From Bolinopsis microptera (taxonomy: Eukaryota > Ctenophora > Tentaculata > Lobata > Bolinopsidae), in assembly GCF_026151205.1 (NCBI RefSeq), contig NC_087083.1:13450944-13514943 (forward strand): a DNA stretch of 64,000 bases, read 5' to 3'. Positions 1 through 60,826 of the stretch are shown piece after piece. How positions within the stretch are numbered: the first letter of the stretch is position 1; every line of letters begins with the position of its first letter. The translations under genes were made by a program, and so were the position numbers. The notes under the pieces are model-generated. The model was not told the origin of the DNA. It worked only from the letters and a program-made list of their open reading frames with translations, and made no database searches.

Positions 1-3000
1 AAAATGTTCTTTTGTCAATAAAGGCTTTAGTACAATCATACAATGAAAAATATACGGGGAATTACGAAAAATAAACCATTCCACCTTCTATTCATAAGCC
101 GCGCGTCCAAAGTTAAATTTATCGAATTATCAATAACTTTGCGGAAATCCGCCTCTAAAATTTATTGGCGGGACATTTTGAGCGGTGACCTTAATCTTGA
201 CGTTTCTGCTTCACTGACTATTCTGAAATTGTTTGCTGCTATTTCAGGGTTCCGTATTTTGGCATCTGCTAATATTCCATTTAATAGAAAGTGCTATGTT
301 TCGGAAAAGTATGTCCCGGAAGAAGTATGTTCCGAAATCATTTAAGATTTCACAGGGCATCAGCAGTTAACTATGCACAATTTATTATCTTAAACGGAAA
401 CGGCATCTCCACAGTTAAGCGAGGTTCTTGCTGCATCGCGGACAGGCACCTGGTAGGCACACCAACATATAGCTAATTCTGGGTCACCACACTTTTCTTA
501 AGAAAGTAGAGCTGCCATTTTCGCCATGTGAAATGTCATCTCCATCCCTGCTATTTCTAGATTATAGATAATTTGACCTAAAGAGTCATGGCTCTTTAAG
601 TGAACAGTGTATCTTAATACCCTGAACAATATAGCCGTTGTTTGTCGGTACAGTTGCATTTGATCGAAAATTTTTCCTTGCGCCGTTAAAATGTTAAAGT
701 TTACACCGTCAAACTTTAACAGTTCCCTATGAATATAATACCAGTGTAAAGGGCAGAGGGGGGAGGGTAAAAATTATTTGTTTAGTTTTAACAAATGTGA
801 TAAAGCTGCCGGAGACGAACAAGTAGGAAAACCGTATTAAAATCTGACCTTGCGTTCCTGAGATATTTGTCGTAGTCACCTTTATATTGGGCTATTATCC
901 AGCTCTAATTTTGGCTCGCTAGTCAAGATTCAAACAGTTAGATCAAGACCACAACATTGCAAATATTTTGTACTAAGCAATGCAATCATGATTCATCGTT
1001 TGCTAAGCATTATAGGATCGGCATTTATATAGATCATTTGATTTGTTTCTATTAATAGATTATTGCGTTGTCAGCTTGTCCCAGCACCTGCTGTTAAATG
1101 GAATGTTAAGTTTGGTGGTTTTCTATTTAAGTGAAGATTGTCTGAGATCATAGCATTTTATTTCCCACCTTAGTTAAGAATTTATGATTTACGTATTTAG
1201 CATCACTAAATACCTCACAGTTTAGAATTCCGATCAATCTGAAAATATCTAAGATGATCTCAGGCTAGATTGACGAAGCTACTGGTATCGATTGTCTTTC
1301 CATTTGATGTTGACGACATTGTCTACATCTTTATTCTTAAGCCTTTGATCCACACTTAGGAATTTTTGGTTTACTTCTTTTAAACTCCTGCCTGGCACAA
1401 AGTATGAATGGTATTTTACTGCTTCTTTATATAGCGTTTCCATGACCATGTACGTGTCAATTATATTCACTAGCAGGAACCCGTATAATATAACCCTAAA
1501 CGGTGTCAAGACTCAAAATACTAAAATAATTATTACCTATTTAATTGGCGTTTTTGACACCACTTGGGGGTCCAAATTTCGGCTCTAAAATCATTATTCC
1601 TTGGCCAATTTTTTATTTTTTCATGCTGATTTGAAGGCCATTAAAGCATTTGACCCAGCCAAAAAAGTTCCAGTTGTATATCTTTTACGGTTTATGCGGA
1701 AAGTCGCGTTAAAGTTGATGCCGCGGTGTCAGTAAAATGGCACAGATATATATATATATATATATATCGTCTCGCTTTATATATAGTAAGATGCCCACAG
1801 TTCAATGTTTTAACCAACCATACCAATATACCATACTTTATACTCATTAACTTATTATCTTTTTACTATATGTTTTAATTGCTAGTCCTTAGAAGGGTAC
1901 TCTATTAACAGTTTTTGACTGATTTGATTGTCCTGCACAGCAGATTGAAGCATCTCTCAATTATTTACTATTATTATTGTATTGCTGTGTAAATTTGATT
2001 CTAATTCTAATATCCGATCGTGATTAAACCCTGCTTTAGTATTAAGTCATGGTTTTCAATATTTACGGACATTATAACTGCACTGATCAGAACTTCACAA
2101 GCCATGTTTTTGGTTGTTTTACTAAAAACTTGAAAAGTTTAGTTTGTCCATTTCATCCCCGTCACCGACAGAATTGACAAATGACAGAGCAGACGAAATT
2201 TCTTAATGAATTCTCATATAATCGCTTAGTTAATTAACTAAGTAATTAACTAATTACTTAGTTCTCATACTAATATGCAACCCTGTCCGTTTCATTTAAA
2301 AAGTGTCGATCAAATCGGGAAAATAGCTATTAAATCATTCAGTGTCACTCTCTGGGAAAGTTATCTTTACTTTAAAATGCTTCCGTGAACTGTTAAATAT
2401 TTTCTGAAAAGTGTTAGAACTCCTCCTACAGTATCTGTCATCACAATTATAGACTCTATGTGGGAAGTTCATACTTTCACTTTTTGTTTTTTCTGAGTTA
2501 TAATATATAACTTATATTTAGGTTTGTCATGTTTCTGTCGTATTTGTTTTATGTACAATTGGAAGAATACCGCAAAATGATTTAACATGTTAAATTCATT
2601 TCTATCTAAAACTCGTTCCACTGCTATGCTTCAATACATTGTTTTGCTTTCAAATAGTATAGAAGTTATGGTCGTCATCAGGCGACATAATACTAATATC
2701 CAGTCTCGAATACATAGAAAATGTCATCCTTCCGCATTTTTCAGGCCTTTATTATTTAATGTCCGAGCCTTATTTTAGATTCATTGCGGGCATTGACTTT
2801 AAATGCTGTAAAGGTGGAGTAATGGAAGAAATTAATATAATTACTATGGAGCGGAATTTGGCTAATTTTAGGGGCGGGAATTAAATCCTACTTTATCGGG
2901 CACGCGATGAAATGGTGGTGTTGCGAAATTTTAAAATTATTACTCAATTCCCATTATCATTGCAATGCATTGTGTCCTTAATAAAGACTCTCTACCAGTG
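1..3000. other. Gene-poor AT-rich DNA
   Basis: No open reading frame here resembles a known protein, and the short ORFs have no recognisable motif or splice context. The stretch contains an (AT)n run near 1747-1767 and a perfect hairpin at 2236-2263 (13-bp arms, 2-base loop). Nothing else supportable was seen. Confidence 0.6.
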
Positions 3001-3009
3001 ATTTAACCC

Positions 3010-3430
3010 GCAGTTACCACGTGGTACCCGTTACATCACCTTCCCAACAAGTCGCTCGCTAAAAACATTATTCAATCAGGATAAAATCCTTATCTCCGGA
3101 ACACGTGATCGGCTTTTGTTCTCCTGAGTGGCTAAAACAAAAGTCACGTGGAACCGTTCCGGGCTCTGGTTGGGTGAGAGAAAGGGGTCCGTGACTCTGT
3201 GAGTTACAAAAGTGCTAACTGAGGATGACCTCACCTTCCTGCAGAACCACTGGTCCATTGTTTTCATCTGTGGGTGTTGAATTACCGCTTTCTCGGTTTC
3301 TCGCACGGGCCGTTCTCATTGGTCCACACATACCACGTGACTGCAATACCAGGACGCTATTAGTTTTAATGAGTCACGTGGCCGCAGTTCTCACAGCGTA
3401 TTGGTGGGTTGTTGTTGATCAGCCAGGTGG
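3010..3430. promoter_or_regulatory. E-box/CCAAT cluster
   Basis: Five CACGTG palindromes lie near 3018, 3103, 3143, 3334 and 3374, with two ATTGG (inverted CCAAT) boxes near 3318 and 3400. The density and the locally higher GC resemble a promoter or enhancer. bHLH factors of the USF/MITF/MYC type bind CACGTG and NF-Y binds CCAAT; binding here is inference. No adjacent exon was identified. Confidence 0.35.
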
Positions 3431-4459
3431 GAGGTAAAAATAGCACTTTTCTAACATAGTCAGTTGTTCTGGTGGTAGCAGCATCGTCCCTTTAATCAAA
3501 TTAGGTAGAGCAGGTGTACACTACTTTAATATTATGAGGGGATCATCTAGGAACGTGAACTATGTTCCCAGCTATTTTGGGAATGGAACTTAAATTAGTT
3601 CAGCTAGTTCACTTGTCTAGCGATGTATATATTTCGTGTCAGACCTTCTAGATTGCCCTTTGCGACTCTCTGTGTAGATATTTTTCAAACTCTGAAGTCT
3701 GAACTATACCTCTGGTCTATTTTTCCTGGAAATTGCAATGGAATACATTTAAACAGTTCTTCCGAAATTATATCTCTGATAAAATGTAACCAGTTCTAGT
3801 TATTATAGTAGTAGTTCGAACTTTGGCAGAATATAGAAATATGAACATTAGCCAGATATGAATGATATAACCTTAGAGAGGCTGTCAAGTTATATTTAAG
3901 CACTAGCAAGCACTGCAGGTAATTATATTCCTTGATATTCTCCCCCCTCTCCCTCTCCATCGAGTTCTGTCCTTACATAATCTGTTCTATTTTTAGCTCC
4001 TGTCAAATTCCACTGAGTAGCTCTCTCTCTCTCGCTGCTATCGTCGCTAGCGGTATACGTTTTGTCATGTAATCAAGCTGCGTATAAAGTTGACTCGAGA
4101 TGGGTGACGTAATTTTCGCTGGAGTTGGCAGGTTTCCAGCTACTATAACTCACCTTGTTTAAATAACCAGCCCGTCCTCTTTGCAACCCAGCCCCTCCAA
4201 CCCTGGCCTAACCCTCCCAGAAATTTCCAGAAAAGTCCGGTGAAATGAGTGGGTAGGACTGATTATCCCAGTATTTGCAACAAATCACAGGCACACAGCC
4301 CAGCATCATACACACACAAGGTTAATTAATGGACGTGGTATAAGGTCTAATTTGCTAAACAACGCAAGTCTCAACACTCGAGGCTGAAGGAGTTCTGTTT
4401 GTAGAGGGCGAGATAGTGCTGACTTCTTGTACTGATCACGTGACCTCTTTATACTGTAT

Positions 4460-4551
4460 CACGTGTCATGACGTCACACCACGTGTCATGACGTCACACC
4501 ACGTGTCATGACGTCACACCACGTGTCATGACGTCACACCACGTGTAATGA
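4460..4551. repeat. 20-bp tandem array alternating E-box and CRE
   Basis: Four and a half copies of a 20-bp unit. CACGTG occurs at 4460, 4480, 4500, 4520 and 4540, and TGACGTCA at 4469, 4489, 4509 and 4529. Each palindrome centre is exactly 10 bp from the next, so every site faces the same side of the helix. It could be a simple minisatellite or a compound enhancer. Confidence 0.9.
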
Positions 4552-4733
4552 TCTCAAAAACCACTTTACTTGCTCGACCTTCCCGCTGAACACACAACAT
4601 TTCTACACCGTTATAATACATGTATACATTTCAAATATTATGCGTGATTGGATACACCATATTGTGCTGAGTAGCTCGCATTGTATGATATTGTATTTTC
4701 GAACCTCGAAACTTAGCATTGAGCTGCGTGAGC

Positions 4734-4866
4734 GTGTGCTGCTCTCCCAAAGTGTGCTCCAGAATCATAAAGCCGGGATATCATGACGTCACACCACGTG
4801 TCATGACGTCACACCGTGTGCTGCTCTCCCAAAGTGTGCTCCAGAATCATAAAGCCGGGATATCAT
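4734..4866. repeat. 51-bp direct duplication flanking a CRE/E-box/CRE block
   Basis: A 51-bp segment at 4734-4784 recurs at 4816-4866. The 31 bp between them hold the 4.46-kb array motif again: TGACGTCA at 4784, CACGTG at 4795 and TGACGTCA at 4804, with the same 10-bp spacing. Confidence 0.85.
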
Positions 4867-4980
4867 TTGTACGATTGCTTTGTTGAAGCTTTGCCTTTTG
4901 CGATACAGTCAATACGTCAATACCTCGAACTTGGCAGAGTACACCCAATCACGCCCCAATCTCACTCGATCACTAGTATA

Positions 4981-5043
4981 CTGTTATAATATGTTATAAT
5001 ATGTTATAATATGTTATAATATGTTATAATATGTTATAATATG
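4981..5043. repeat. 10-bp minisatellite (TGTTATAATA)
   Basis: About six near-perfect tandem copies of a 10-bp AT-rich unit. Confidence 0.9.
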
Positions 5044-5713
5044 TACTGTTTGTAAGTACTTATCATATTTCCCATGACACCCCGATCTCAGGTGTACTAT
5101 CACACCTTCTCCTCCTGATCCTCCTCTCATTAGTGCAACAACACCCACCAATTACACCTAATCACACCTACTAATCACCACAACTAATCACACCTAATCA
5201 CACCTACCCAAGCTACTCGCGCTTCAACTCAACAGTTTGTATAACCTTGCTCGCTCTCTCTCCTCGCTTCTTCTTTGTGCAGACGGACCGTTACGCATGT
5301 TTTGGGCTGTTGACAACTTTTGCATGCAAGCTGTTGTAAAGTTTATAAGGGTGGAGCCACACCACTTATTATCATCATTATATTTTGAACCGTATATTAT
5401 GTGTATTTATCCTGTATAATATTGCGTGCATTATAACATACAAATACGAAATATATGTGTTTAATGTTATATTCAACCTGGTTCCTAGGTTGCCATGATC
5501 ACCATGAGCGCACCAACCAATCGAGTGAGGGTACTCCTGTCATGTGATCACAATGAGCCAATCACGGTGAAGTGTACCGCTTGTCTGCACGCATTATACT
5601 GGGTGCAGGACCCCGTACCCGTGCCAAGTGTTGCTTATTGTTGCTGGGGAGGTGTGATGTGGTTACTTGCTCCTGTCGACTGTCACGTGACCTGTTCACT
5701 TGCTCCTTGCACT

Positions 5714-5763
5714 GTGTCACGTGGTGTGTCACGTGGTGTGTCACGTGGTGTGTCACGTGGTGT
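5714..5763. repeat. 12-bp E-box minisatellite
   Basis: Four tandem copies of GTCACGTGGTGT, each carrying a CACGTG palindrome. The same 12-bp unit occurs about twice near 20,326-20,350. CCAAT boxes lie upstream around 5520 and 5560. Confidence 0.9.
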
Positions 5764-5949
5764 GGTTCATTATGCTACTTGTTCTCATTCACACGTGTAC
5801 TCGTTTAACCTTGTACGTGTTCAATGTTTGGATACTTGTCAATATTTATGTTCCCAGGGTTTGGACTTTGGAGTTGTTTAGTATCGACACTATCCCAATG
5901 TACACTATTACTGCTAGAAACCTGCTAGTCGAAACTCGAAAGCTTTAGG

Positions 5950-8900
5950 AGGAGGAAATTTAAAATCAGTTATGTTCTAATTTCTCTTCATTTGCAACGG
6001 ATGGTCACTTTTTGGTAAATGTAGTTGTGTTTGAATGTAGTTTCCGGAGGGATTTCGTCAAGTTAAAGTTATAGTCAGTAATATAATCACCGAACTAAAA
6101 TATCGTTTTATTTGAATTAGTGAGATTCAATGAAATATTAACTTCAGTTATATGACAATATGTTAAGCTGCACCTTGGCTCAACAGTATTTGCCATTTGG
6201 CTCCTTTCCAATTTGTGCCTTCCCCTGCTTCGAAGACCCTACCTTTATTTTCCAACGGCTTTATAATGCTGCTAAGTACTGCCAACACTTTAAAACATTA
6301 AGCATAAAGTGCTATACGTCTGTCTGACTAAAACGCGGTTTTTATCTTCATGAATCATCTTCCTGCCGCTCGTCTCACGCTAATCTCAGTCTAGTCTACT
6401 TACATATTTCACTTACTGTACTACACGTACAATGATCTGATAGCAGTTCTGCTTGTCCTGATGATCAGCAACCCAATTTATTTAAGTGGTTCACATTTTA
6501 AGTACATAATGAGATTGGATGCTTTGATCATACCCGGTCCAACAGATACTTTGAAGTTGTTCGCGATCTTTCTAGTTTAACTCTATACCATCCACTTAAA
6601 CGGCCATTTTAAGGCTTGATACGCTCCACTTATACGTCCACTCTAGGGCTTGATATGTTCCACTTAAACGGCCATTTTAAGGCTGTGGTCTAGACTAATC
6701 TACCTCGATTGGACATAGTCCAATACGGGAACCTCTTAAATGTTTCTTCCCGTGCATCTTGGTGACAGACCTATGCTATGGTATTAACACACAGGGACAT
6801 GTTTCTATTAATAGATTAAAAAGTAGATGTCCTCTATTTTAAGTGTAGAGTTAACCACGTTAATTACCAAATGTTGGTCACCAAAATGGTGACGACACCC
6901 CGCCCTCTCAGCTCAGCATCAGTGAAGTGTAATTTTAGTGCGCGGTTTGCGGTTAGTAGGGTGGCACCGCTCTTAAACGTGTATAATAGCGGTCCGCCCT
7001 CCGTCTAGGCCTCCGTCTAGGCCTCTAGGGCTACTTGCCACCTCCAGTGTGTGACCGTAGTAATGCCGAGCAGGGTGCCCCGATCGAATTGCTTATGAAA
7101 ATATGTCATAGATTTGAAATATCATATCGGATTGCTTCTTCTATTATGTAATCACTGCATTTCAGTGTATCTTTACATAGATCACGCACTTGAAAATTAG
7201 ATTAGGACCAAAATTTGTTGACTTTGAAGAGAATTTTATTTTTTATTCTCGTTTTCACCAAATAAGGGAAGGTATGCATTACTAGACCTCTAGACGGTTT
7301 CCCCAATAATATAATCTCTCGCTTTGTTGTAATCAATTGGTTCACATGGTCATCACATGGTTAATGTATTCACTACAGATAAGCATGACCTCAAATAACT
7401 ATAATGTTTAATTTATTTATAATTGATAGATAAGACCATCATGAGTCGTGACCTGATTTCGCTGATCTCAATCACACGCACACCACATGCTGTATCACAT
7501 TACTTTACAATATTTACAATTGATATTTGATGAGTCACAATGTTGCTATTGCCTACGTAAAATATAAATAACGAAATTTCGTGAAGACGTTAAACTCGTT
7601 ACTTGCGAAATGATGTTATGTATCTGAACGCCGTCCAAGTTATGTTTCTTGCGGAGATTTTTTTCTATTTTTAGATATTCTTCAGCCTCTTTACAAGCAT
7701 TGAGCTCGTCATCATCAGCAGGCGGTGGATTATGTAGTTGTTACGACTGAATGGTGACACATACACATTGTGATTAACTTCAGTTTCACTTCATAACTGG
7801 GCTGTATAAGTTTTATTGTTTCTCCGCGCGTTCAGTTGTTATGAGCAACTTTTTTTGTTGCTTTTGTTTTGTTATCATGATAAGTTTAGTATGATGGAAG
7901 ATTGATTATAGGTATTTAGTTGATCACTATCACTACGCGTTGAACTGATAATTGTCATCGTTATTTATAGATAAACTTAATCTTACGGCCATATTCGGCA
8001 ATATAAGTATTTATACGTCTTATAAATATAATAGAGCGTTGGATAATGGATAGGTGTGTTTTGTTTAAAGAGTTGTTTAAACTCTGTAATTTGTAATTTA
8101 CTTTGATTAATTTCTGTAATTAGTAATACTACGATTAATTTCTCACGAGAAACCCAGATTCGTGTTAGAGCCGGTAATAACACCAAATCAGTTATCTGAT
8201 TGAAGCTGATTTAAAGTTACATCACACTTTGAGCTATGCTTTGTTGTTTAATTAGTATTAATTATTCGGTGATAATTATAGAATTCTCGATGACAATTCT
8301 ACTCATTATCTTGTGACAAGTATTGAGTAACCATTTGTTTCCCTGACTTTAGACCGATGAGCGGTTTCATTCAGTTAAATCTCTCAAGATAAGGACAGTC
8401 TAATTCTCATAAAATTATAAATTAACCATGCTTACTTTTGCTTTCGGCTGAACCGTGTACTTTCTAAATCTTCTTGTCTCTCAATTGAGCAGTGTTGACG
8501 TCATAATGAAGACAGCCGAATAAGGACAGATTCCTTAAATAATTAGGACCCACAGCCGTCTGGGACCAGCTTCAAGCTGGCAGCTTGCGCGGTCCCCCTC
8601 AGTAATACAGCATCTCCCATTTGGGGTATACCGTATATCACTGACCGCTAAGGTGGGCCAATCAAACTTTTGGGAAGCCGTCATTTAATGTTCAAGTCGT
8701 TATTTTGGTACGGTCACCGCTTTGATATTTTTCATGATTTGTAATAATCACCCCATAGCTTTTGGTCAAAAGATAACCGGAACACAAAATAATGGATATG
8801 TCACAGCTTAGCGCTTTTAGTGTGCCAATGTGGTCTATTATTCATTATATGGGCTTTTATGTGTTCGTTATTTAGTGGCTGTCTTGTGTGCGTTATTTAA

Positions 8901-12979: not shown

Positions 12980-13556
12980 GCTACACCTCTACTACACCTC
13001 TACTACACCTCTACAACACCTCTACTACACCTCTACTACACCTCTACTACACCTCTACTACACCTCTACTACACCTCTACTACACCTCTACTACACCTCT
13101 ACTACACCTCTACTACACCTCTACTACACCTCTACTACACCTCTACACCTCTACTACACCTCTACTTCACCTCTACTTCACCTCTACTTCACCTCTACCT
13201 CACCTCTACTACACCTCTACTACACCTCTACTACACCTCTACTACACCTCTACTACACCTCTACTACACCTCTACTACACCTCTACTACACCTCTACTAC
13301 ACCTCTACTACACCTCTACTACACCTCTACTACACCTCTACTACACCTCTACTACACCTCTACTACACCTCTACTACACCTCTACTACACCTCTACTACA
13401 CCTCTACTACACCTCTACTACACCTCTACTACACCTCTACTACACCTCTACTACACCTCTACTACACCTCTACTACACCTCTACTACACCTCTACTACAC
13501 GGTACACCTCTACTACACCTCTACTACACCTCTACTACACATCTACACCTCTACTT
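12980..13556. repeat. 11-bp minisatellite (CTACTACACCT)
   Basis: About 50 tandem copies of an 11-bp unit, with a few variant copies near 13,140-13,205 and 13,500-13,510. Because 11 is not a multiple of 3 and the unit has no stop in this strand, long open frames arise in more than one + frame and encode the same 11-residue repeat. They are not evidence of a gene. Confidence 0.95.
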
Positions 13557-15564: not shown

Positions 15565-15665
15565 GTCACGTGGGTAGTTAGACCGCTGCTTCTTATTGGC
15601 TGAAACTGCCCACGTGGGTAGTTAGACCGCTGCTTCTTATTGGCTGAAACTGGCCACGTGGGACG
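15565..15665. repeat. 43-bp tandem repeat with E-box plus CCAAT
   Basis: Slightly more than two copies of a 43-bp unit that begins with CACGTG and includes an inverted CCAAT box (TTATTGGCTG), ending in a third CACGTG at about 15,654. The pairing of the two sites is therefore preserved by duplication. Confidence 0.85.
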
Positions 15666-29541: not shown

Positions 29542-29811
29542 GTTTTGTTGAATTTAGAGGAAGTGGAAACGGAGATGTAATTCTGATCATAGTCTCCAGT
29601 CTCGTGCATTAGTATTACTGTAAGTTTACAGCAAACGACCGTGGCCGTGTCAAGTGCGGCCTCTGTAGTCTGTGGTGAAATTTAGAATTGAGTAAATATG
29701 AAATAATATCGAGCCCATCGGATATTGCATACTTCAAGGTTTTGAAATGGAACTCTCACATCTCACCAACACATTATTCCTCATGATATATGATAACAGC
29801 AGCTGATTTGG

Positions 29812-30014
29812 TTGTAAGTTTACAACCTACCAGGACGCGCGCCGAGTTGGACTCGTCGACGGTCCTGGAACAAATATTTTACGAGTATCACCCGTTAACT
29901 GATTTGGTCACGTGTATTGGTTTAACGGGTGATACTCGTAAAATATCTGTTTCATATATTGGACCGTCGACGAGTCCAACTCGGCGCGCGTCCTGGTAGG
30001 TTGTAAACCTACAA
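29812..30014. mobile_element. Palindromic MITE, copy 1 (complete)
   Basis: A 203-bp element with inverted arms of about 88 bp. Each arm holds, in order, a terminal hairpin (about GTAGGTTTACAACCTAC), a GC-rich block with GGCGCGCG and GTCGAC, and a TTTTACGAGTATCACCCGTT block. A 22-bp unique centre contains GTCACGTG. No coding capacity. Confidence 0.8.
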
Positions 30015-30420
30015 TGAACATGGTACTCGCTATTTTAAGATCGGTAAAAATAATTTTCCCTTTCTATCAAGTTAAAGTCAGGACTCTGATGATAGCAATA
30101 ACTCTAATCGTCGGCTTCTTAGTTACATTGGCTGCAATAGATGTTTGGTATGTTGTCGCTGTTAAATAAGTTGAATATGAAGGTTTCCCCTGGTTCATGG
30201 TTCTCTTGTAGGTTTACAACCTACTAGGACGCGCGCCGAGTTGGACTCGTCGACGGTATATGGAACAGATATGGAACAGATATTTTACGAGTATCACCCG
30301 TTAATGGTTCTCTGGATGAATGTCACGATTAGTTTTGTTGGTCATAATTTAGTGTTTAGTAGATTTACTTGTTATGATGTTCAATGTGGATATTTCGTGG
30401 GATAATCTGGGGGAAACTGA

Positions 30421-30641
30421 TTGTAGGTTTACAACCTACCAGGACGCGCGCCGAGTTGGACTCGTCGACGGTCCAATAAATGGAACAGATATTTTACGAG
30501 TATCACCCGTTAAGAAACTGAACATTGTCTTGCAGGGTTGCTGTATCTTAACGGGTGATACTCGTATAAGATCTGTTCCATATATTAGGACCGTCGACGA
30601 GTCCGATTCGGCGCGCGTCCTGGTAGGTTGTAAACCTACAA
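30421..30641. mobile_element. Palindromic MITE, copy 3 (complete)
   Basis: A 221-bp element with both arms of the family and a 33-bp unrelated centre. It is positioned inside the arms of copy 2. Confidence 0.8.
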
Positions 30642-30718
30642 GCTGTATTTAATATAAAACCCCAGTCGCGATTGTTCTGATTTGCCTCGTGATCCAATTT
30701 ATTGTCACACGGCAGAGT

Positions 30719-30836
30719 ACACGTGCACGTGACCCCGACCACCCTGTGCACGTGGCCCGACCACCCTGTGCACGTGACCCCGACCACCCTGTGCACGTGA
30801 CCCCGACACCCTGTGCACGTGACCCCGACCACCCTG
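30719..30836. repeat. 23-bp E-box minisatellite
   Basis: Five tandem copies of a 23-bp unit GTGCACGTGACCCCGACCACCCT, with one-base deletions in some. Each copy has a CACGTG, and there are six in all counting an overlapping pair at the left edge. Confidence 0.9.
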
Positions 30837-31414
30837 TGGTTGTTGATTAGTCACATGTAAAATGTTAACGGGTGATACTCGTAAAATATCTGTTCCATAT
30901 ATCGTCGACGAGTCCAACTCGGCGCGCGTCCTAGTAGGCTGTAAACCTACAAGTAAAATGTAAATACTTAATACCACCGTTTCTATCCTCACGACTGTCT
31001 TCGTAGTTTGTAACTCAGGAATATCACTTCTGCAGATCTTCAATCAGCTTCTTGAAAATACGTTTGCCGAGTCAGTTTTCGTGTTGATGATTTGTGCGTG
31101 ACATTGATTTACGATGTCAATCCTTCCCAGCTCGGCGAGGCCCAGTGGTACATCTCCCCGATCTACGGAAGGTTGCGAGAAGATGCGCGACCCAGTAGTG
31201 CATCGCGGTACAATACATGACATTACCTCTACTTTACTCACTTCTAACAGTAACACCGCTCTTTATATTAGCTAGAAGTAAAGAGTTGAAGGGAATCAGA
31301 GGGACAGACGGATATATATAATAACATCTATAAACAAAAGAGCACCTAAAGAGGCTCAGCAAAGTACTGGCCTATTTCATATTTGCGCTTTCGAAGACTC
31401 CTTCGTTCAATATG

Positions 31415-31641
31415 TTGTAGGTTTACAACCTACCAGGACGCGCGCCGAGTTGGACTCGTTGACGGTTTAATATATGGAACAGATATTTTACTTGACCATT
31501 GTTAATGATCTGGCCCGGCGCGCGCTACTTCGTAGCACTTGCCATCGGGCCTAACATTTCGAGAAGAAAACGGCGCGCGCTACTTCGAAGAAATTTAGGC
31601 GAGTAACATCCGTCAAATATTTTACGAGTATCACCCGTTAA
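31415..31641. mobile_element. Palindromic MITE arm with insertion, copy 5
   Basis: A left arm of the family starts at 31,415, is interrupted after ATATTTTAC (about 31,487) by about 125 bp containing two GGCGCGCGCTACTTCG blocks, and resumes at about 31,613 to end at the usual GTTAA. The duplicated ATATTTTAC at the junctions marks the insertion. It abuts the 3' end of the LINE fragment. Confidence 0.65.
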
Positions 31642-36063: not shown

Positions 36064-38321
36064 ATGAGAGTAGCAGGAGTATTCGTGGTACTAGTTGCCA
36101 TGGCAACAGCAGTTGATCTGAGCCACAAGGACTGCGGTAGTTCGGCCACTGTTACCAAGGTTTTTAGTGATGACTGTGCCGATGCTGTCTGCAAACTTAA
36201 GAAAGGTTAGAAATTATCATTATAACCATGCTATAACCATGTCATAACCATGTCATAACCATGCTATAACCATGTCATAACCATGTCATAACCATGTCAT
36301 AACCATGCTATAACCATGTCATAACCATGCCACAACCATGCCATAACCATGCCATAACCATGTCACAACCATGTCATAACCATGTCATAACCATGCCATA
36401 ACCATGTCACAACCATGTCATAATCATGTCATAACCTGCCATAACCATGCCATAACCATACCATAACCATGCCATAACCATGCTATAACCATGTCATAAC
36501 CATGTCATAACCATGCCATAACCATGTCATAACCATGTCATAACCTGCCATAACCATGCTATAACCATGTCATAACCATGTCATAACCATGTCATAACCA
36601 TGCTATAACCATACCATAACCATGCCATAACCATGCCATAACCATGTCACAACCATGTCATAACCATGCCATAACCATGCTATAACCATGTCATAACCAT
36701 GTCATAACCATGCCATAACCATGCTATAACCATGTCATAACCATGTCATAACCATGCTATAACCATGTCAAAACCATGCCACAACCATGCCATAACCATA
36801 CCATAACCATGTCTCAACCATGTCATAACCATGTCATAACCATGCCACAACCATGTCACAACCATGTCATAACCATGCCATAACCATGCCATAACCATAC
36901 CATAACCATGCCATAACCATGTCACAACCATGTCATAACCATGCCCTAACCATGCTATAACCATGTCATAACCATGTCATAACCATGCCATAACCACATC
37001 ATAACCATGTTGTGTCGACATTGTTATGGTGTCGGGATTCTATTATATTATGATGAATTTATTTTATAAAATAGTATTGTGTATATTCAGTAATTATCCA
37101 ATTAATTAAACAACAATTAAATTCACTTCTCCCCGCCAGGGAACACTTATCAAATCAACATATCCTTCAAGCCTGCTTCTGATCTGAAAGAACTTAAAGC
37201 ATCTCTTGCTGGAGTGATCGCGGGCATTCCTATCCCGTTCCCTCTCCCTGTATCGTGAGTACATTAGTCAATATTAATAGTTCCCTCTCCCTGTATCGTG
37301 AGTAAATTAGTCAATATTAATAGTTCCCTCTCCCTGTATCGTGAGTAAATTAGTCAATATTAATAGTTCCATCTCCCTGTATCGTGAGTAAATTAGTCAA
37401 TATTAATATATTCAACTGATTAATTTGATTGATTAAACAGAAATACGTTAGTTAACTTACCACTTTTGTAGTTGAAAAGTTTGTTAATTTATAAATACTT
37501 ACAGTTACAGAGAATCGGCTAACCGTCTCCTAAAAACATTTTATCATAACAATAATTATTTTGAGTTAATCAAATGACATTTTAATACCCCTCTCGCAGG
37601 GACGGTTGTGTAGCGTGTGGTGACACGTGTCCCATCGCTTCAGGAGCTGATGTTACCTTCTCTGAGGTATGTGGTAGCGTCTCCCCAGCATGCCTAATTT
37701 TAAAATCAATCTAAAAGATTATGTTTGCTCTTGATTTTCTTAATTTTAAATTTACTTGGCAACCAGTATATTCATCATAATATACAGTAACCAGTATGTT
37801 AAATAACCAGTATATTAAATAACCAGCATATTAAATAATCAGCATATTCATTAACCAGCATATTCATCAGTAACCAACATATTCATTAACCAGCATATTC
37901 ATCAGTAACCAGTATATTCAGTAACCAGCATATTCATCATTAACCAGTATTTTCAATAACCAGCATATTCAGTAACCAGCATATACAGTTACCAGTATAT
38001 TCAGTAACCAGTGCAGCATATTCACTATTCAGTAACCAGTATATTCAGTAACCAGCATATTCAATAACCAGCATATTCAATAACCAGCATATTCAGTAAC
38101 CACAATATTCAGTGACCAGTGCAGCATATTCACTATTCAGTAACCAGTATAATATTCAGTAACCACTAACCAGCATATTATGTAACCATGTTCTCTGGCA
38201 GGCACTGAAAGTGGAACCATCCTACCCCGCACTGAGACTTGTGTCGAGATGGAAGCTTCAGACTGTTGGAGAGGATGACCAGGTGCTATGTGTAGAGATT
38301 CCCGTAGCCATCATCAGCTAA
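36064..38321 (+). CDS. NPC2-like: NPC2-like secreted ML-domain sterol-binding protein
   Basis: Four exons join at GT-AG sites: 36,064-36,205, 37,140-37,254, 37,600-37,666 and 38,202-38,321. They give a 147-residue protein, the usual NPC2 length. Residues 1-16 are a hydrophobic signal peptide (MRVAGVFVVLVAMATA). The rest is one ML domain: a first cysteine at 24, a close pair at 38 and 43, then IPIPFPLP followed by DGC (77-89), cysteines at 92 and 96, and a last cysteine at 138 in VLCVEIPV. NPC2 proteins bind cholesterol or related lipids in the lysosomal lumen or extracellularly and pass them to NPC1; that role is inferred from family. There are seven cysteines rather than the usual six, the extra one lying at 89 or 92. 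Introns 1, 2 and 3 each carry tandem repeats, and intron 2 duplicates the splice donor. A possible ATTAAA poly(A) signal lies near 38,375. Identification is firm at family level; orthology to vertebrate NPC2 is not proven. Confidence 0.92.
36215..37012. repeat. 11-bp minisatellite in NPC2-like intron 1
   Basis: About 72 copies of ATAACCATGTC with GCC, GCT and ACC variants occupy nearly all of intron 1. Open frames in it are artefacts of the period. Confidence 0.95.
37238..37406. repeat. 43-bp tandem repeat duplicating an exon end and splice donor
   Basis: Four copies of a 43-bp unit starting TTCCCTCTCCCTGTATC and followed by GTGAGT. The first copy straddles the exon 2/intron 2 junction at 37,254/37,255, so the intron contains three more copies of the last 17 exon bases with the same donor hexamer. 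Confidence 0.95.
37790..38190. repeat. Degenerate 16-bp repeat in NPC2-like intron 3
   Basis: Many irregular copies of AACCAGCATATTCAGT and variants, ending just before the exon 4 acceptor at 38,201. Confidence 0.85.
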
Positions 38322-41962: not shown

Positions 41963-44237
41963 CTAGTCGTTGGAGTGGCCTGCATCACACACATCGCGTT
42001 GGCGGCGTAACATATGTCTCCACTGTACTCGGTTGGTAGCCAAAGCTTCTGTTGTGTCGTTGTCGATGTTTTCAACACCTGTAAACTTAGCAGCATCTTC
42101 GAGTACGCAGGACTTCCAGTTCTTACGGGGTCTGCCCCTTGACCTCTTTCCATAGTTTGGCTTCCAGTTCAACAGAAACCTCGGTAGTCTAGAGTCTGGC
42201 ATTCTAACTACATGTCCATACCAACGTAGCCTGGCAGCACTGATGAAAGTCTCAACTGACTTGATGCCAGCCCTCCTAAGAACTTCGTCGTTGGTTACAT
42301 GAAAGAACCATTTAATCCTAAGGATCCTTCTCAAGGAGGTTTGATGGAAAACCTCGAAACGTTTCATCTGCTTTTTGGTGGTGTTCCAGACTTCAGCTCC
42401 ATACAACAAGATGGTGAGGACAGCAGCCCTATAGATCCTGATCTTGGTTGGAGTCTTTATAGTTCTGCTATTCCAAATGTTCCAGAGCTGATGAAAGGCG
42501 CCATTAGCCTTCTGGATACGGACATCCAGGTCTCTGTTGATTGTCCCATCCCCACTAATAGTTGCACCCAGGTAGACAAAGTTGCTAACCTGCTCGACGG
42601 GTTCACCCTCAACCGACAGCTCAATACAATCATCCTTGATGAAAGGTCGCTGGGAGGCGCACTTGCTTACAGCCATGCATTGGGTCTTCTTTGCATTTAT
42701 TCTGAGCCCAGCGTAGGAGCTGTAATGAACTAATAGATCAGTTGATTCCTGTAGGCCTTCCCCTGAGTTGTCCATAATAGCCATGTCATCAGCATAATCG
42801 GTGTCCAGAATGACCTTTTCCTCGACCGTCTTCATCTCTTTCTGCAGCACTGCGCCTTGACTGATGATCTTGTTGGTCTCAGCCAGAAATGCAGAAAAGT
42901 TTAGGCAGAAATTAAAGACAGGAGGTGCTTGAATGTCACCCTGACCTGTGCCTGAGTTAACATCAAACCAGTCTGTCAGCTCCCCATTAACCCTCACGGC
43001 ACTCATGGTACCCCCAAAAAATGACTGAAATATTCTGACATATTTTTCAGGCAGCCCATAGTGTCTCATACTGCACCAAATAAAGTCCCTTCTGATAGAA
43101 TCGAACGCTGCCTTGAAATCCACAAAATTAATGTAAAGAGGAATGTTAAACTCAAGACAGTTATGAATAATAGTTCGGAGAGAATAAATCTGATCAATAC
43201 ATGAGCGGTTCTGTCTAAATCCGCACTGATTCTCCCTGAGGAGACACTCCATACCAGCATGTAACCGCTTAAGAAGAATCATCTGAAAAAGCTTGGATGC
43301 TGTAGACCTTAAGGTGATCCCTCTGTTGTTCCCGCAGACTGAAGTGTCTCCTTTCTTCCCAATAACAATGATCACACCCTTTAACCAATCTTCAGGAACA
43401 GTCTCTTCTTCCCACACTTTCTTGAATAGACACTCTAGTTGATCAACTAGAGCACTCGCACCATACTTCAGTTGCTCGTTAGTTATCCCGTCCACTCCTG
43501 GGCTTTTGTTGTTCTTAAGCTTTGTCAGGGAATAACTAATCTCGTCTCTGGTGGGTGGTCCATCCGAACAAGAGAGAGAGTTAAAGTGGGGTTGGGGTGG
43601 TACTGTATCAAGGTCGGCAAGGTTGACACTTGATGATGGGGGGTTCAGAAGTTCAGTAAAGTGCTCCTTCCACCTATCCCTCTGCTGTTGGGGATCCGTG
43701 ATCTTCCTACCGTCCTTGTCCCGGACACAAGATGCTTGAGGCTTCTTGTTCTTACCAGAGATCTTCTTGATCTTTGCCCATACCTCACGCTGCTGACCTT
43801 TGCTCGCTGCTTTCTCAAGATCAGTAGCTACTCTAACTGCCCAGTTATTGTCGTCTAGCTTGCTGCTTTTCTTGACTAACTTATTAAGTTTAGAATACTC
43901 TGACCTGTTAGTGTCCGAGTTTGGGTCTTTGCGCTTAAACTGTGCCCGCTGAGTCAATAAATCCTTGGTCTTCCGTGACAGGTGTTGCTCCTTTGCCTTC
44001 CGGGGTCTTTTGCCTAGTACCTCCAGTGAGACATCAGTGACGGTCTGACTGAGATTACGCCACATATCCTCGAGGTCGACCTCACTATCCAGACTTGCAA
44101 ATCGGTTTTGAAGAGCCACATTGTACTCTAAAACCGTAGTACTATCCATCAGGCGCTCAATGGCAGGCACATTGGGCCTGTTGGCGTTGATCTTTGTCAC
44201 TGACTGAAGTTTGATTTTCAGCAGTCCTAGAACCAGA
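41963..44237 (-). pseudogene. LINE B reverse transcriptase region
   Basis: About 757 codons of uninterrupted frame. RT motifs in order: NNRGITLRSTASKLF, ENQCGFRQNRSCIDQI, FVDFKAAFDS (motif A, catalytic Asp), GTGQGDIQAPPVFN (motif B), YADDMAIM (motif C, catalytic Asp pair), GLRINAKKTQ (motif D) and FVYLGATIS (motif E). The C-terminal part has LRWYGHVVRMPD and RGRPRKNW, common in LINE C-termini. The catalytic residues are intact, but the frame is cut from its endonuclease by the hAT insertion, and the apparent first 24 codons of the open frame upstream of 44,237 come from that insertion. The protein would copy LINE RNA into DNA at nicked target sites. Confidence 0.9.
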
Positions 44238-44935
44238 CATGGGCACATATTAGGTGTGATGGGTGCGGGATCGCACAATTTACCGTTTTCCGCACACCCA
44301 GTTACCACGTGACTCAGGCCCTTTCGGGACCGTGACCCAGGCCATTATGGAACCCTCGTCGTTGCCGTACTTCGATTATAGTGTATCAGTTATCATTCGT
44401 AGGTGATAATAGAAGAAGTAGGTGTAAAGGGTAATGAGCTTTATTCGTTGCAGCGTTGGCTTTATAGTGGGCTTAATGGATCTTGGATCAAATGGTTCAC
44501 AAATACTGACGATCAATTCCAACAAGCGTGTCACATATTTGCGATCATGCATGGGATCTGATCGACTCTATCAAGAGGCGTCTTCAAATAACTGTATCCT
44601 GATTCCTGATCTCTACCAGATCAAGTCACTGTTCTCAGATAACTGAATCTCAATATAGGTTCAATCATGGTCTTAGTAAAGAACTACACCCTCAGTAACA
44701 CATAAACAGACCTATTTTTGATAAGAGCGGCGGTTATACGTTTAGAATTTCCAAAGTCCTTGAGAAAATGCAAAAAAAACCCCGCACAATTCCCGCACAA
44801 ATTTCGAAAAAATCGCCGCACATTTGCCGCATAATTGGTAAAAATTTACCGCACCTTACCGCACATTTTAACTTTATAGTCGGGTGCGGTACCGCATAAT
44901 TTCGATTTTTTTACCGCACCTAATATGTGCCTCTG
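44238..44935. mobile_element. hAT-type MITE, innermost layer
   Basis: A 698-bp insertion with perfect 8-bp target duplications GAACCAGA at 44,230-44,237 and 44,936-44,943. On the minus strand the termini read CAGAGGCACATATTAGGTG and, inverted at the far end, CATGGGCACATATTAGGTG. Subterminal regions are full of CCGCAC repeats. It separates the endonuclease from the RT of LINE B; joining at the duplication rejoins SDHYLV with LGLLKIKL in frame. No transposase. Confidence 0.9.
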
Positions 44936-45925
44936 GAACCAGATAATGATCGGAGCCGATGTCTGCCCCGCGACATACCCTAACATCAAAAAGTGACTGA
45001 CGAAACCGCTTTCCAATGCAGATATGATCTATCTGATTGACGGTGAGCCCGTTGGGGGACCGCCATGTTCCCTTGTGAATGTTCTTGTGCTCGAAGAGAG
45101 TTCCCCCGATGACAAGCTGGTTCGTCGCACAGAAATCCACAAGTCTTGTCCCGTTGTCATTTGATGAGCTATGGAGTGATTCCCCACCGATGACCGCTTC
45201 ACTTCCATATCTGCCTGATGTTACTTTTGCATTAAAATCGCCGAGCAGTAACTTGATATCGTGACGAGGTAGCCCATCAAATGTATCTGTGAGTGTCCTA
45301 TAAAACTTATCTTTCTCACTCTCCTCTGCACCCTCAGTTGGAGCATAGGCCACAACAACAGAGATGTTGATTTGCTTACTATGCAGCCTAGCAGTTAAAA
45401 CCCGCTCCGATGTGGGAGTGAACGATATCAGGGAGTTTCTGATTCGTTTTGAAAGACTGAGACCGACTCCCTGTCTCTTGATCCCGCGACTCTACCGGAA
45501 TGGATGAGTAGACTGCCATTGTCCAGTAGAGTGGTGCCAGATCCAGGCATGTGAGTCTCGGTGATCCCCAAAAGATCCAATCTGTACTGATCAATGTTTT
45601 TACTAAGTTGGTAGAGCTGTGTAGATGAGCTGACAAGAGATAGAACGTTCCATGTTCCAAAACGTAAAAACTGTTTGCAATAATTTACTGAATTGGATTT
45701 GTTGGAAGCAGGGTCAACATGGATGATCTGTTGACTAATAAATCTGGTCGGATGACGAGTACCCCCTCTTCTCATCAGGCGACTGGGGTCCCGTAGGCTT
45801 TGCCCAGCCTCCGTCATGCTGGAACCATCCGTCCTTGAATTGGAAGTAGCACTCCGTCCATTTGATGTGTGTGTTGTTTCAGTAGCGTTGTTATTTGAGG
45901 TGGAAGGGATGCTGGCCCTTCGCAC
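44936..45925 (-). pseudogene. LINE B AP-like endonuclease region
   Basis: The frame opens near 45,925 with a Ser/Thr/Asn-rich leader, then gives the exonuclease-endonuclease-phosphatase fold motifs: GTWNVLSL (Asn), ITETHMPGSG (Glu), VAYAPTEG, LLGDFNAKV (Asp-Asn), NQIDHICI, and SDHYLV (Ser-Asp-His). A one-base frameshift near 45,475 breaks the frame between the Glu and Asp-Asn motifs, and the hAT insertion follows the final His motif. In life it would nick chromosomal DNA to prime reverse transcription. All catalytic motifs are recognisable, so decay is recent. Confidence 0.88.
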
Positions 45926-54258: not shown

Positions 54259-55660
54259 CGCACTACCACTACCAGTAGCACTAGCACTGGCATATGAATG
54301 ATGATTAATCACTTTACACTCGATTTCTTTTTCGAACCGTTCTCTAGCTGGCCCTGAACGACTATTCGAAACCTTAACACTTAACTCTCTAATCTGATCC
54401 CAACCTTAACTCTAACCCAATCCTTAACAAAAGCATATGCAGAAACCCTAACCCTAACGAGAAATTATATCAACTAAAACTTCAAGTTCCTTATACGGTC
54501 ATATCACGTGATCGAGACAGTTTTTCGCCAATATCTCGCCAGGGGAGTATTTAACTTTAAGTTTATGTCATGGGGTGATTCGGAATCAGCGTCCAAAAAT
54601 ATATATGAAATACATCGATTGAAGTTTGTTTCAACTGTCGGGGGAACTATAATTTCCGGACAATCTCGAAGATCGACTGTGAAGTGATTTAACACGCTCG
54701 GTGGCATATTGAGAAATTCAGGGGTTTTATTACATATAAATGTTCTGAAGTTCGTTGTTGTACGTGATTTTTTTCGAGGGGTCTGGATTCTGTTAAATCA
54801 AAATATAAACCTGCGAATTTGTTGATAAATACTGCTGATCAGCACTTGGAAAATTAGATTATTAGGCAGAAAAGATAATATCGCAGACTTACAGTTACAA
54901 TTAGGTAGGCAGGATTTTAGGTTACCTGCACGCCAGTCCCTGTGCACGGCGCTCTTTTCAAGCTTCCTGAACACGAGCAAGCAATATACTTATAAATTAT
55001 ATATAAGCAAGCTACCCAGGAAACCTTACCGAAAGGGGCCTAACTTCGAAAGTAAAAGAGATACTGGGATAGAGACTTCCGGTTTCTTGCAAAATGTTCG
55101 CCTCGTCAAAATAAGCCGAAAGCCAGCACTATGATATAATTATAACGGCGGCGGTCGTGCTTGCCAGCACTGTGATTCAATAAATTTGATTGATTATCTT
55201 ACGAAAAAATGTCTATTGACTTGTAAATTTAAATCAATGTAGGGATGTACTCTTCGAGTCGAACAGACAAATCATAAACTTAAAGTCGATCATGATCATG
55301 TTAACTTCTTAATGTACAACTATGACGTACAGAGTTGACATGTGAACTTTATATCTATCCTACGTCTAGCCCATTTCTTGTCATACGTTGTATGACCCGC
55401 CGCGCACGAGTGCGCGGCTTCCCCTGTATCGTAGAAACTCTACAGTGTGAAAACGACATTGGGGGTCACGACGTGATACAACCCATTACTAGGTCAATTA
55501 AATTCTACTGATAACTGATGGATCACATCACTAATTATACGTCACTAATTGGTGACCGGATTAAACAGGATTAAACAGGACTGACATGATCTGATAGTGA
55601 TCACCCTGATATGATAATCGGGGGCCCTTTATACACAGGAGGACTGTAGTGCAAAGAAAC
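54259..55660. other. Repeat-rich spacer
   Basis: It contains the left member (54,298-54,374) of an inverted pair with 58,411-58,493, a diverged repeat at about 54,739-54,793, a segment near 54,985-55,020 shared with 57,866-57,885, and foldback copy 2 at 55,380-55,482. No gene seen. Confidence 0.45.
55380..55482. mobile_element. 103-bp foldback element, copy 2
   Basis: Same length and ends as 29,181-29,283. The central 30 bp differ; the hairpins at the left and the GGGGGTCAC to GATACAAC terminus are conserved. Confidence 0.65.
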
Positions 55661-55667
55661 TGCTGCT

Positions 55668-56188
55668 AACTGCTGCTCACTGCTGCTCACTGCTGCTCAC
55701 TGCTGCTCACTGCTGCTCACTGCTGCTCACTGCTGCTCACTGCTGCTCACTGCTGCTCACTGCTGCTCACTTCTGCTCACTGCTGCTCACTGCTGCTCAC
55801 TGCTGCTCACTGCTGCTCACTGCTGCTCACTGCTGCTCACTGCTGCTCACTGCTGCTCACTTCTGCTCACTGCTGCTCACTGCTGCTCACTGCTGCTCAC
55901 TGCTGCTCACTGCTGCTCACTGCTGCTCACTGCTGCTCACTGCTGCTCACTGCTGCTCACTGCTGCTCACTGCTGCTCACTGCTGCTCACTGCTGCTCAC
56001 TGCTGCTCACTGCTGCTCACTGCTGATCACTGCTGCTCACTGCTGCTAACTGCTGCTCACTGCTGCTCACTGCTGCTCACTGCTGCTCACTGCTGCTTAC
56101 TGTTGCTCACTGCTGCTCACTGCTGCTAACTGTTGCTCACTGCTGCTCACTGCTGCTCACTGCTGCTCACCGCTGCTCATTGCTGCAA
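55668..56188. repeat. 10-bp minisatellite (TGCTGCTCAC)
   Basis: About 52 tandem copies with rare single-base variants concentrated at the right end. Confidence 0.95.
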
Positions 56189-58512: not shown

Positions 58513-60826
58513 ATGTCGTACTGTAGAGCTTTTGTGGTGTTTGCTGCGATCTTTTTGCAGAGTGTTCTCGTGTATTCATGCTCAGTGGTTCAATCATCTT
58601 TCTACGTCACCCATCTCGTCAACAGAGGTTTGGAGATGTTTCATTTTTCAATGTTAGTTTCACAAAATTATACGTTTGTTTGAACTTCGTTTTTTTTAAA
58701 TGTATGCTTATTCCTTTATTGAATTCCGTGTTAACACTTATTCATGGATGGGACCGAAATTTAAGGATCTCTGATCAGTGATTAGTGGTTTAGTCGAATA
58801 ACAATATTTTCATTTCAGGAATCCCAAAGCTCCAAGTAGGTTTGATCGGGATGGTTCCTGGCGTTGGCTTCATTTGTAGCACCTTTTTTGATGGCACGGG
58901 CTACTTCCTTCATACCAGGAAGATGTCCTTGAGAATAGCTCAGTGCATGTTTATGGCTATAGTCATAGTAAACTGTGTTGGTAGGTTTTTTATTTATAAA
59001 ATTTATAAATAAAAATTTAATATAAATAGGTCATAGATCAGACAAGGCTGGTCGGTCGGAGGTCGATCGGAGGTCGGTCAGGCGCCGGTCGGAGGTAGGT
59101 CGCCCGACCTACCTCCGACCGACCTCCAACCGACCTCCGACCGGTGCCCGACCGACCTCCGACCGGCGCCCGACCGACCTCCAACCGACCTCCGACCGAC
59201 CTTCGACCGACCTCCGACCGACCTACGACCGAACTCCGACCGACCTCCGACCGACCTCCGACCGACCTCCGACCGACCTCTGACCGACCTCCGACCGACC
59301 TCCGATCGACCTCCGACCGACCTCCGATCGACCTCCGACCGACCTCCGACCGACCTCCGACCGGCGCTCGACCGGCACCCGACCGGCGCCCGATCGACCT
59401 CCGACCAACCTCCGACCAACCTCCGAACGACCTCCGACCGACCTCCGACCGGCGTTCACCTACCGCCGACCGGCGCCCGACCGACCTCCGACCGACCTCC
59501 GACCGACCAGCCTTGTCTGATCTATGACCAAATATTCAACTGCTGCAATTGACGCTTGACCGATTTATTTTTTACTGTAATGATTTATGGATATTGATTT
59601 TTGAATTTTAAATTGTTACTCAGTTACTGTCTCCTAGCAATAATCATTAACCTTCAGTTATGGGACTCGTCGAGTTGCTCCCGACAGACTACAACCAACT
59701 TTTGGCTGCTATTCTGATTATTCAACGTACCCTTCACGGTTTTCTGGCTTTTCTAACCAGTAAATTGACGTTGGAATGCTGCAGAGCATGGTTTCCTGAC
59801 CACTTCAATCTTACAAATGGGCTCCAGTGTAGTGGTATGTACTTTGGAGGATCTCTGGCAATTCTCATGGGAGGGTACGTCTACGAAGCTTATGGCTATC
59901 AGATGCCTTACGTGTTCACTGGAATAATTTGCCTCCTATTTTGGTTATACAATTTAATTTGCATGCCAAAAAACTCAGATCCAGTGATAGTTAAAGTTAA
60001 AGAGGTAGGGGACACTATTGAAGCTCCGTGGTCCAAAGAAGAAAGGTTAACTGAAGCTGCAAACCCCGGTAATGTCCCTGAAATGTCCGAGGACGTAGCT
60101 TCATCCCTGAACCTGTCCTGGCGTGTTGCCATCCCTGTCGCTGCTATGATTCTCACGGTAGTGCTTGAAGGTTTCACGGCCGCCATAACCACTCCTTACC
60201 TGAAAGATATCTACGATATACCCATTAGTCGTGGAAGCAGTTACGTGTTCGTGCAGTACATTGGATTGATGATAGGGGCTGCTAGTTCCGGCTCAATGTT
60301 GCAACTAGGGTGGTTTTCTGCTAGCAAAGTCACAGCAGGAGGGTCAATTCTCTGTGTTTTAGGCGTGATGCTTGTCTTCCCAGGCGAGGGTATCTACTTC
60401 CTCTATAAAGAAGTTCCAAATATAGCTTATCTCGGGATATTCCTCCAAGGGTACGGAAGCCAAATGATTGGGGTAGCCACCCTTCCAGCACTCGAAGAGA
60501 CACATGTAGTATTAGGTGGAAGACCCTACACAAGCAAAAACAAGTCCACTGCAGCTTCTATCTGGCTAAGTTCATGGATGATGTCCGTTTATGGAGGACA
60601 CTTAGTGGCCTTGATGGTGATGGAGCTCATGAGCTTCAGTAACGGTGGATGGATGCTAGCAGTATTCAGCTCAGTATCTGTATTTATGAGCATTGCTCAG
60701 GATATTGCCATCTGGAGAGCTAAAGCTGCGTTGAAGCGAGCTGAAGTTAAAGTGAGTGTAATAAAGGTTAACAAATTATCTAGAGAAGGAGTCAAGAATC
60801 TATCTGTGCAAGATATGGACTGCTAG
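58513..60826 (+). CDS. Major facilitator superfamily transporter, three exons
   Basis: Exons 58,513-58,627, 58,819-58,980 and 59,658-60,826 join at GT-AG sites, both introns in phase 1, giving 481 residues. An ATG at 59,660 lies inside exon 3 and is not the start: exons 1 and 2 supply the first membrane helices (AFVVFAAIFLQSVLVYS, and VGLIGMVPGVGFICSTFF followed by DGTGYFLHTRK, a motif-A-like loop). Further helices include SGMYFGGSLAILMGGYVYEA with YQMPYVFTG, a charged central loop (about residues 200-240), and six more helices in the C-terminal half. Length and pattern fit a 12-helix MFS permease of the plasma or an internal membrane. Substrate is unknown; the GYVYE segment recalls SLC18-type carriers such as SLC18B1, but that is weak. 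A foldback element occupies intron 2. Confidence 0.85.
59029..59529. mobile_element. Foldback element in transporter intron 2
   Basis: Inverted ends of about 35 bp (GGTCATAGATCAGACAAGGC reading inward from each side) enclose about 40 copies of the 11-bp unit GACCGACCTCC and variants. A 5-bp AAATA occurs directly outside each end and may be the target duplication. Open frames of Pro/Thr/Arg repeats across it are artefacts. Confidence 0.82.

Follow-up and report, generated by a model that had tools for sequence, protein, structure and literature searches.

A dispersed E-box/CRE minisatellite in the ctenophore Bolinopsis microptera and its probable spread by templated insertion at staggered breaks

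Introduction

Natural insertions in rice were explained by patch-mediated repair of double-strand breaks, involving asymmetric nicks and end joining (Vaughn and Bennetzen 2014, as summarised in the review PMC7407515). In that summary, the rice events comprise (partly) tandem duplications together with inserts that derive from DNA close by, and both features are found at the loci described here, which carry paired E-box and CRE motifs in the genome of the ctenophore Bolinopsis microptera. Unlike the rice insertions, as far as the review's summary describes them (PMC7407515), the ctenophore loci contain one motif pair that recurs as the insert at several places, and other tandem arrays in our sample are rarely or never flanked in this way. 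It is this recurrence of a single motif pair as repair filler that appears unusual.

Two further systems are close to these loci. Fill-in by Pol alpha-primase at 3' overhangs makes small tandem duplications, according to the part of the source available to us (PMC8355091); the doubling of DNA where a break has 3' overhangs would be common to both cases, whereas the duplicates at E-box/CRE loci enclose a templated insert. Gain of introns through break repair or tandem duplication, in the outline given by a review (PMC3443670), shares with our loci an insert flanked by direct repeats and duplicated splice-like sites; in contrast to such gain, the serine hydroxymethyltransferase (SHMT) intron considered below predates its insert. 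Loop anchors of ctenophores contain a GC-rich motif bound by CTEP1 and CTEP2, and looping was linked with transposable elements (PMC12221973, seen in part). That motif, which we know by its description only, resembles the E-box/CRE unit in being short, CpG-bearing and repeated across a ctenophore genome. With minisatellites in general our loci share short tandem arrays, here of a 20-bp unit, but E-box/CRE copies occupy separate sites, several of them with target duplications. Within the literature collection searched, there was no paper joining CACGTG, TGACGTCA and minisatellite, none on Mnemiopsis with CACGTG or on Mnemiopsis chromatin loops together with a motif and a tandem repeat, and none that connects introners and a target site duplication with intron gain in a metazoan.

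Materials and methods

The window is the whole 64,000-bp stretch of contig NC_087083.1 that was analysed. Motif searches covered the whole genome of 264,652,675 bases and a reversed control. A sample of random DNA (200 kb, 38.2% GC) made up 264 kb together with the window. Mixed arrays were delimited by their motif edges and had to contain both motifs and at least three sites, which gave 19 arrays; clusters of E-boxes only were excluded from this set. Direct repeats in the flanks were accepted from a score of 28. The counts leave out overlapping loci (L003, L004, L007, L008, L010, L012, L013 and L018-L028) as well as the paralogue L015.

Results and discussion

The array and its genome-wide family

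Nine sites, five of CACGTG (starting at 4460, 4480, 4500, 4520 and 4540) and four of TGACGTCA (starting at 4469, 4489, 4509 and 4529), alternate over positions 4460-4545 with a centre spacing of exactly 10 bp, just as the sequence-only reading had described. This alternation arises because the repeated unit is 20 bp long, a length within the range of about 10-100 bp that defines a minisatellite. Downstream of its CACGTG the last, partial unit is degenerate. The window contains 11 matches to the combination CACGTG-N3-TGACGTCA, that is CACGTGNNNTGACGTCA, compared with 0 in 100 dinucleotide shuffles, and CACGTG itself occurs there 62 times, about six times the order-1 expectation. The array and the features around it are listed in Table 1. 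No flank repeat at or above the score threshold of 28 surrounds the main array. A diverged target duplication at this place was considered and not accepted, the weak resemblance of the flanks having a shuffle p of about 0.2.

Table 1. Features of the window around the E-box/CRE array, and flank repeats of the sampled arrays
Feature	Position in window	Strand	Description
Extra E-box	4437..4442	.	TCACGTGA at 4436-4443; off the 10-bp register
Left array flank	4240..4458	+	single-copy; only the self-match in genome search
E-box/CRE minisatellite	4460..4551	+	CACGTGTCATGACGTCACAC x 4.6 copies, period 20, 98% matches
Stretch between array and insert	4552..4783	+	single-copy except for 51-bp duplicate
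A1, left 52-bp direct repeat (target duplication)	4733..4784	+	52/52 identical to A2
B, 30-bp insert	4785..4814	+	30/30 letters present in the 4460 array, 240 bp away
A2, right 52-bp direct repeat	4815..4866	+	52/52 identical to A1
Window flank repeat			51 within the edges used, 52 overall
L006 flank repeats			39/42 and 31/33
L009 flank repeats			first array 56/57; second array 16/16
L011 flank repeat			51/52
L014, L051, L043			each with a flank repeat, score at least 28

The 4460 array belongs to a dispersed, genome-wide E-box/CRE minisatellite family. Searching the genome with CACGTGNNNTGACGTCA gave 1,516 + 1,383 = 2,899 matches, as against 0 in the reversed control; the longer unit pattern was found 331 + 343 times and an exact 37-bp double unit 63 + 124 times. 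When the spacer between E-box and CRE was allowed to vary from 4 to 34 bp, there were 3,892 + 3,524 matches versus 53 + 44 in the reversed control. Among the first 100 matches listed for this pattern, all of them on contig C1, spacers of 6 bp (25 matches), 16 bp (20) and 23 bp (12) lead, the last being the reach to the next unit in a 20-bp array. Units of 18 bp and 15 bp are also present in the genome. A strict 10-bp grammar was ruled out by the presence of spacers of 4, 6, 9, 16 bp and larger; other units and spacings are common, and therefore 10-bp phasing is not a rule of this family. E-box and CRE travel together, and the 10-bp phasing is one of several arrangements in which they do so. 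The sequence-only reading had offered two views, a compact platform for transcription factors and a by-product left by the expansion of a repeat. The 20-bp unit and the existence of a genome-wide minisatellite family bring the by-product closer to what was found, and the array is no one-off helical platform.

The family was also seen in another form: at C5:692645-726203 lies a higher-order repeat with a 141-bp step (seen at C5:692645-701506), which carries the E-box/CRE core in several blocks across 33 kb.

Probable insertion between duplicated targets

It had also been claimed that the same 10-bp spacing recurs in an independent block at 4784-4811. The spacing is indeed that of the 4460 array, with CACGTG at 4795 lying between TGACGTCA sites at 4784 and 4804, but the independence of the block has to be given up. 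Insert B, composed of two CREs and one E-box, with the first CRE taking the last T of A1, is a copy of array sequence placed between identical 52-bp repeats of otherwise single-copy DNA, and it bears the mark of an insertion with target duplication rather than of an independent origin. Two marks of templated insertion at a staggered break, a perfectly duplicated target and a perfectly matching nearby template (Table 1), are present in this block. The sequence around insert B had no further genome match at E 0.001 beyond its own duplication. The donor was probably the 4460 array, with the segment 4733-4866 as its recent daughter, a direction which we infer. As the left flank is single-copy, there is no sign of a repeated transposon in it, and a transposon hidden in the window flanks was ruled out, both of them being single-copy.

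Target duplications are not confined to the window. Direct repeats with a score of at least 28 flanked 9 of the 19 mixed arrays delimited by motif edges, compared with 1 of 322 re-paired flanks (nominal Fisher 6e-12, calculated for pairs that are not independent). These arrays represent 7 of 14 regions according to our grouping. For seven of the nine duplications the distance to the array is no more than 20 bp on either side; those of L011 and L014 are 22 bp and 41 bp off, respectively. Flank repeats of this score are absent at the remaining 10 of the 19 (L049, window 24155, window 24678, L052, L017, L005, L053, L050, L016 and window 4437), L005 having an 8-bp flank repeat only; these arrays may be old, may be donors, or may have been made otherwise. 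Across the loci, the length of the duplications ranges from 8 to 57 bp, the ends of the inserts vary between the loci printed, and L006 has an A-B-A-B-A arrangement.

The choice of edges matters for such counts. Tandem Repeats Finder edges define a different set of 19 arrays containing E-box/CRE sites, of which 3 reached a score of 28 and two had the repeat adjacent to the array. Among other tandem arrays delimited in the same way, 4 of 206 scored at least 28, with 0 adjacent, and after trimming of the edges by up to 12 bp adjacent repeats were found at 4 of 215. Random intervals had adjacent repeats in 14 of 600 cases, 8 inside tandem arrays and 6 outside; the latter figure puts the background of local repeats at about 1%. 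Clean A-B-A structures of any kind number six in the 264 kb of window and random DNA, that of the window being one of them. As to clusters of E-boxes only, one of four had a flank repeat (L001, 29/37), with none at L002, L037 and window 5718.

Templates could be recognised for other inserts, too. The insert of L005 has a 61-letter match to L006, about 2 kb off, of which 21 letters lie outside the array, and it is flanked by the 8-bp duplication; at L009, about 0.3 kb separates the first array from the inverted junction of the second, with which it shares a match of 44 letters. Together with the window, this makes three donor-daughter pairs only. On contig C1, among the first 100 places listed, which reach 25.79 Mb of its 26.2 Mb, there are 28 array groups, and 8 of 27 gaps between neighbours are of 10 kb or less versus 0.29 expected. 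Nearby templates, an inverted match and clustering all fit local copying in either orientation.

Duplications of variable length, varying insert ends, nearby templates and the use of both orientations suggest that staggered breaks were repaired with filler copied from a template. We consider spread of the E-box/CRE minisatellite by templated insertion at such breaks to be the best explanation, with a probability of roughly 0.62. What is observed is the A-B-A anatomy, the identity of the template, the clustering on C1, the single-copy flanks in the window and an excess of acceptor-like sequences after the arrays (see below); the steps of breaking and copying, and their enzymes, we infer. The target would be opened by two nicks about 8-57 bp apart, and a broken end would then copy a nearby E-box/CRE array in either orientation, sometimes together with letters adjacent to that array. 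Once the ends are filled in and joined, the array would sit between two copies of the host target (A-B-A). Later slippage and unequal exchange could produce longer arrays, arrangements such as A-B-A-B-A of L006, and longer satellites; unequal exchange starting from A-B-A might plausibly also lie behind the 141-bp satellite series on C5. The spread would proceed mainly over short distances.

Arrays and splice junctions

Exon ends were often recognised, by reading, next to targeted arrays. In a count over the whole genome, which does not depend on such reading, TTTCAG occurs 4-34 bp after the arrays at 19 loci, compared with 3 loci for its reverse complement CTGAAA (p 0.0009), whereas GTAAGT precedes arrays at 16 loci versus 8 for its reverse complement ACTTAC, a difference that is not significant (p 0.15). 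Therefore, an association on the acceptor side is supported, and one on the donor side is not established.

Homology verified the junction at two loci only. L011 lies between exons of SHMT (E 8.9e-24; the second exon, at 2.8e-6 and 26.6 bits, falls just below the cut-off), and the duplicated stretch at L011 extends across the 3' splice site of an SHMT exon. A pyrimidine tract and AG are already contained in the duplicated copy, and so the SHMT intron predates the insert. L050 is located directly upstream of a Prp8-like (PRP8) exon (Pfam 1.4e-12; human Prp8 in PDB 6.5e-17). L005 and L006 are within an SLC6-type gene (9.7e-16 and 2.7e-15), the exon on the array side being putative, without a significant match. 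The junctions of L014, L016, L049, L051, L052 and L053 were judged from open frames and consensus sites alone. By reading, a splice-like junction is near the array in 9 of 11 targeted regions, the exceptions being L009 and L017; the latter appears to be located deep in an intron of a kinase-like gene, at a distance of hundreds of bases from the exons found, both Pfam matches there being below the cut-off. None of the five arrays in the window and random DNA has a verified junction. No significant match was obtained for the exons guessed at L016 (Sec8_C 0.28, below the cut-off; nothing in PDB), L014, L009, the array exon of L006 and two others, nor for a putative exon at window 7546-7740, and none of ten frames scanned against Pfam, of which eight lie within 2501-7482 and two outside, scored above the cut-off.

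It is possible, if somewhat doubtful, that the arrays prefer exon-intron junctions or are tolerated beside them, at times duplicating a splice site so that the insert is spliced out, in a manner similar to intron gain by break repair. The TTTCAG excess, the positions of L011 and L050, the junctions read near most targeted regions and, in direction though not in significance, the GTAAGT count would be in line with such a link. On the other hand, it has to contend with the scarcity of verified junctions, the location of L017 deep in an intron, the greater age of the SHMT intron and the weak contrast obtained in a crude splice-matrix test, in which 7 of 19 arrays and 47 of 264 other tandem arrays had an intron-side site close by, and 5 of 19 and 34 of 264, respectively, an exon-side site, a comparison confounded by the target duplications. 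A link of this kind is compatible with templated insertion at staggered breaks.

Motif constraint and possible regulatory function

CACGTG and TGACGTCA sites are presumably those of bHLH-zip and ATF factors, and the arrays might be enhancers or promoters for bHLH-zip and bZIP proteins, with selection keeping the helical phasing. Exact palindromes at 10-bp steps would agree with this proposal, as would the 2.6-fold enrichment of CACGTG above expectation in the 200 kb of random DNA. So would the pattern of base changes: among the first 100 places listed for the longer unit pattern, which form 34 loci on contigs C1-C4 by our grouping, at 33 of 34 loci most units carry C in the free CRE position (2 of the 33 have a minority unit with a different CRE base), whereas the free spacer position is off the commonest base at 18 of 34 (Fisher 4.6e-6 from tallies typed by hand). 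Against it, the canonical sites do not come with a constant spacing, as differing spacings and unit lengths are common; motif positions decay too, with 9 deviations at 14 motif positions and 6 at 6 spacer positions in the 18 units of L016; and the target duplications are left unexplained. A platform maintained by selection appears unlikely.

Conservation of the motifs across loci suggests that intact palindromes matter, either through bound proteins or through self-pairing of strands, and it suggests, weakly, that they do so at the birth or expansion of an array rather than for the upkeep of each copy. In terms of templated insertion, proteins bound to the motifs could join donor and break, or self-complementary strands could prime the copying. 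Hairpin elongation as a general cause was rejected: an 8-bp palindrome occurs in 16 of 69 units with at least 3 copies, versus 7.2 expected and a maximum of 13 in 200 shuffles, which is a mild excess only.

We would put forward, very tentatively, a further idea, namely that of a self-propagating regulatory minisatellite. Paired E-box/CRE palindromes would favour their own use as a repair template, by means of bound factors or strand self-pairing, and would seed candidate transcription-factor arrays beside exons throughout the genome of a ctenophore, without a transposase, each A-B-A being able to grow into a satellite. If the account of spread by repair is right, repair alone could disperse ready-made arrays of transcription-factor sites; the birth record, consisting of duplicated targets and identifiable donors, would be datable copy by copy; and the steps by which break repair leads to satellite DNA, and to new sequence that could serve as regulatory or intronic material, would become open to test in a group of animals that matters for the early evolution of regulation.

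Slippage and transposition as less likely alternatives

An ordinary minisatellite, produced by slippage from a chance seed and by segmental duplication, without any movement, seems improbable. Variant units of L016 do recur 100 bp apart, a single segment is represented by 97% copies at L014 and L015, and the window is rich in minisatellites of 10-12 bp; but such an origin does not account for the same E-box/CRE unit at many separate places, for the target duplications, or for daughters that carry letters adjacent to the donor array. Carriage of the array by a retroelement or a non-autonomous DNA transposon, as the direct repeats flanking the inserts could indicate, is now very improbable, as a DNA transposon or MITE has constant ends and a duplication of fixed length, whereas our duplications vary (8-57 bp) and insert ends differ among the loci printed, the window flanks are single-copy, and no A-tail was seen by eye in the printed inserts.

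Other features of the window and sampled loci

Repeats of other kinds were noted in the same material. Long minisatellites with units of 10-11 bp occupy window positions 12981-13546, 36222-37009, 55659-56186 and 59104-59508, and arrays with E-boxes only are found at 5713-5764 (12-bp unit), 15567-15662 (44-bp unit) and 30723-30838 (23-bp unit). Direct and inverted copies of a repeat bearing GGCGCGCGTCCTRGTAGGTTGTAAACCTACAA are clustered at 29809-31450. A GC-rich element, GGC(A/G)CGCGCTACTT, has 9 matches in 264 kb, among them window positions 31517 and 31572 and loci L030, L032, L033 and L044; it may be related to the GC-rich loop motif of ctenophores, which is known to us by description (PMC12221973, seen in part). 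GCGCGC is 10.9-fold above expectation in the 200 kb of random DNA.

Two coding regions were also recognised. On the minus strand of the window, positions 41963-45491 contain an RVT_1 frame (2.3e-26) and an endonuclease-like frame (3.4e-05, below the cut-off), by reading a non-LTR retroelement, and an open frame of 391 amino acids at 59651-60826 matches MFS_1 (4.5e-11) and reads as a transporter exon.
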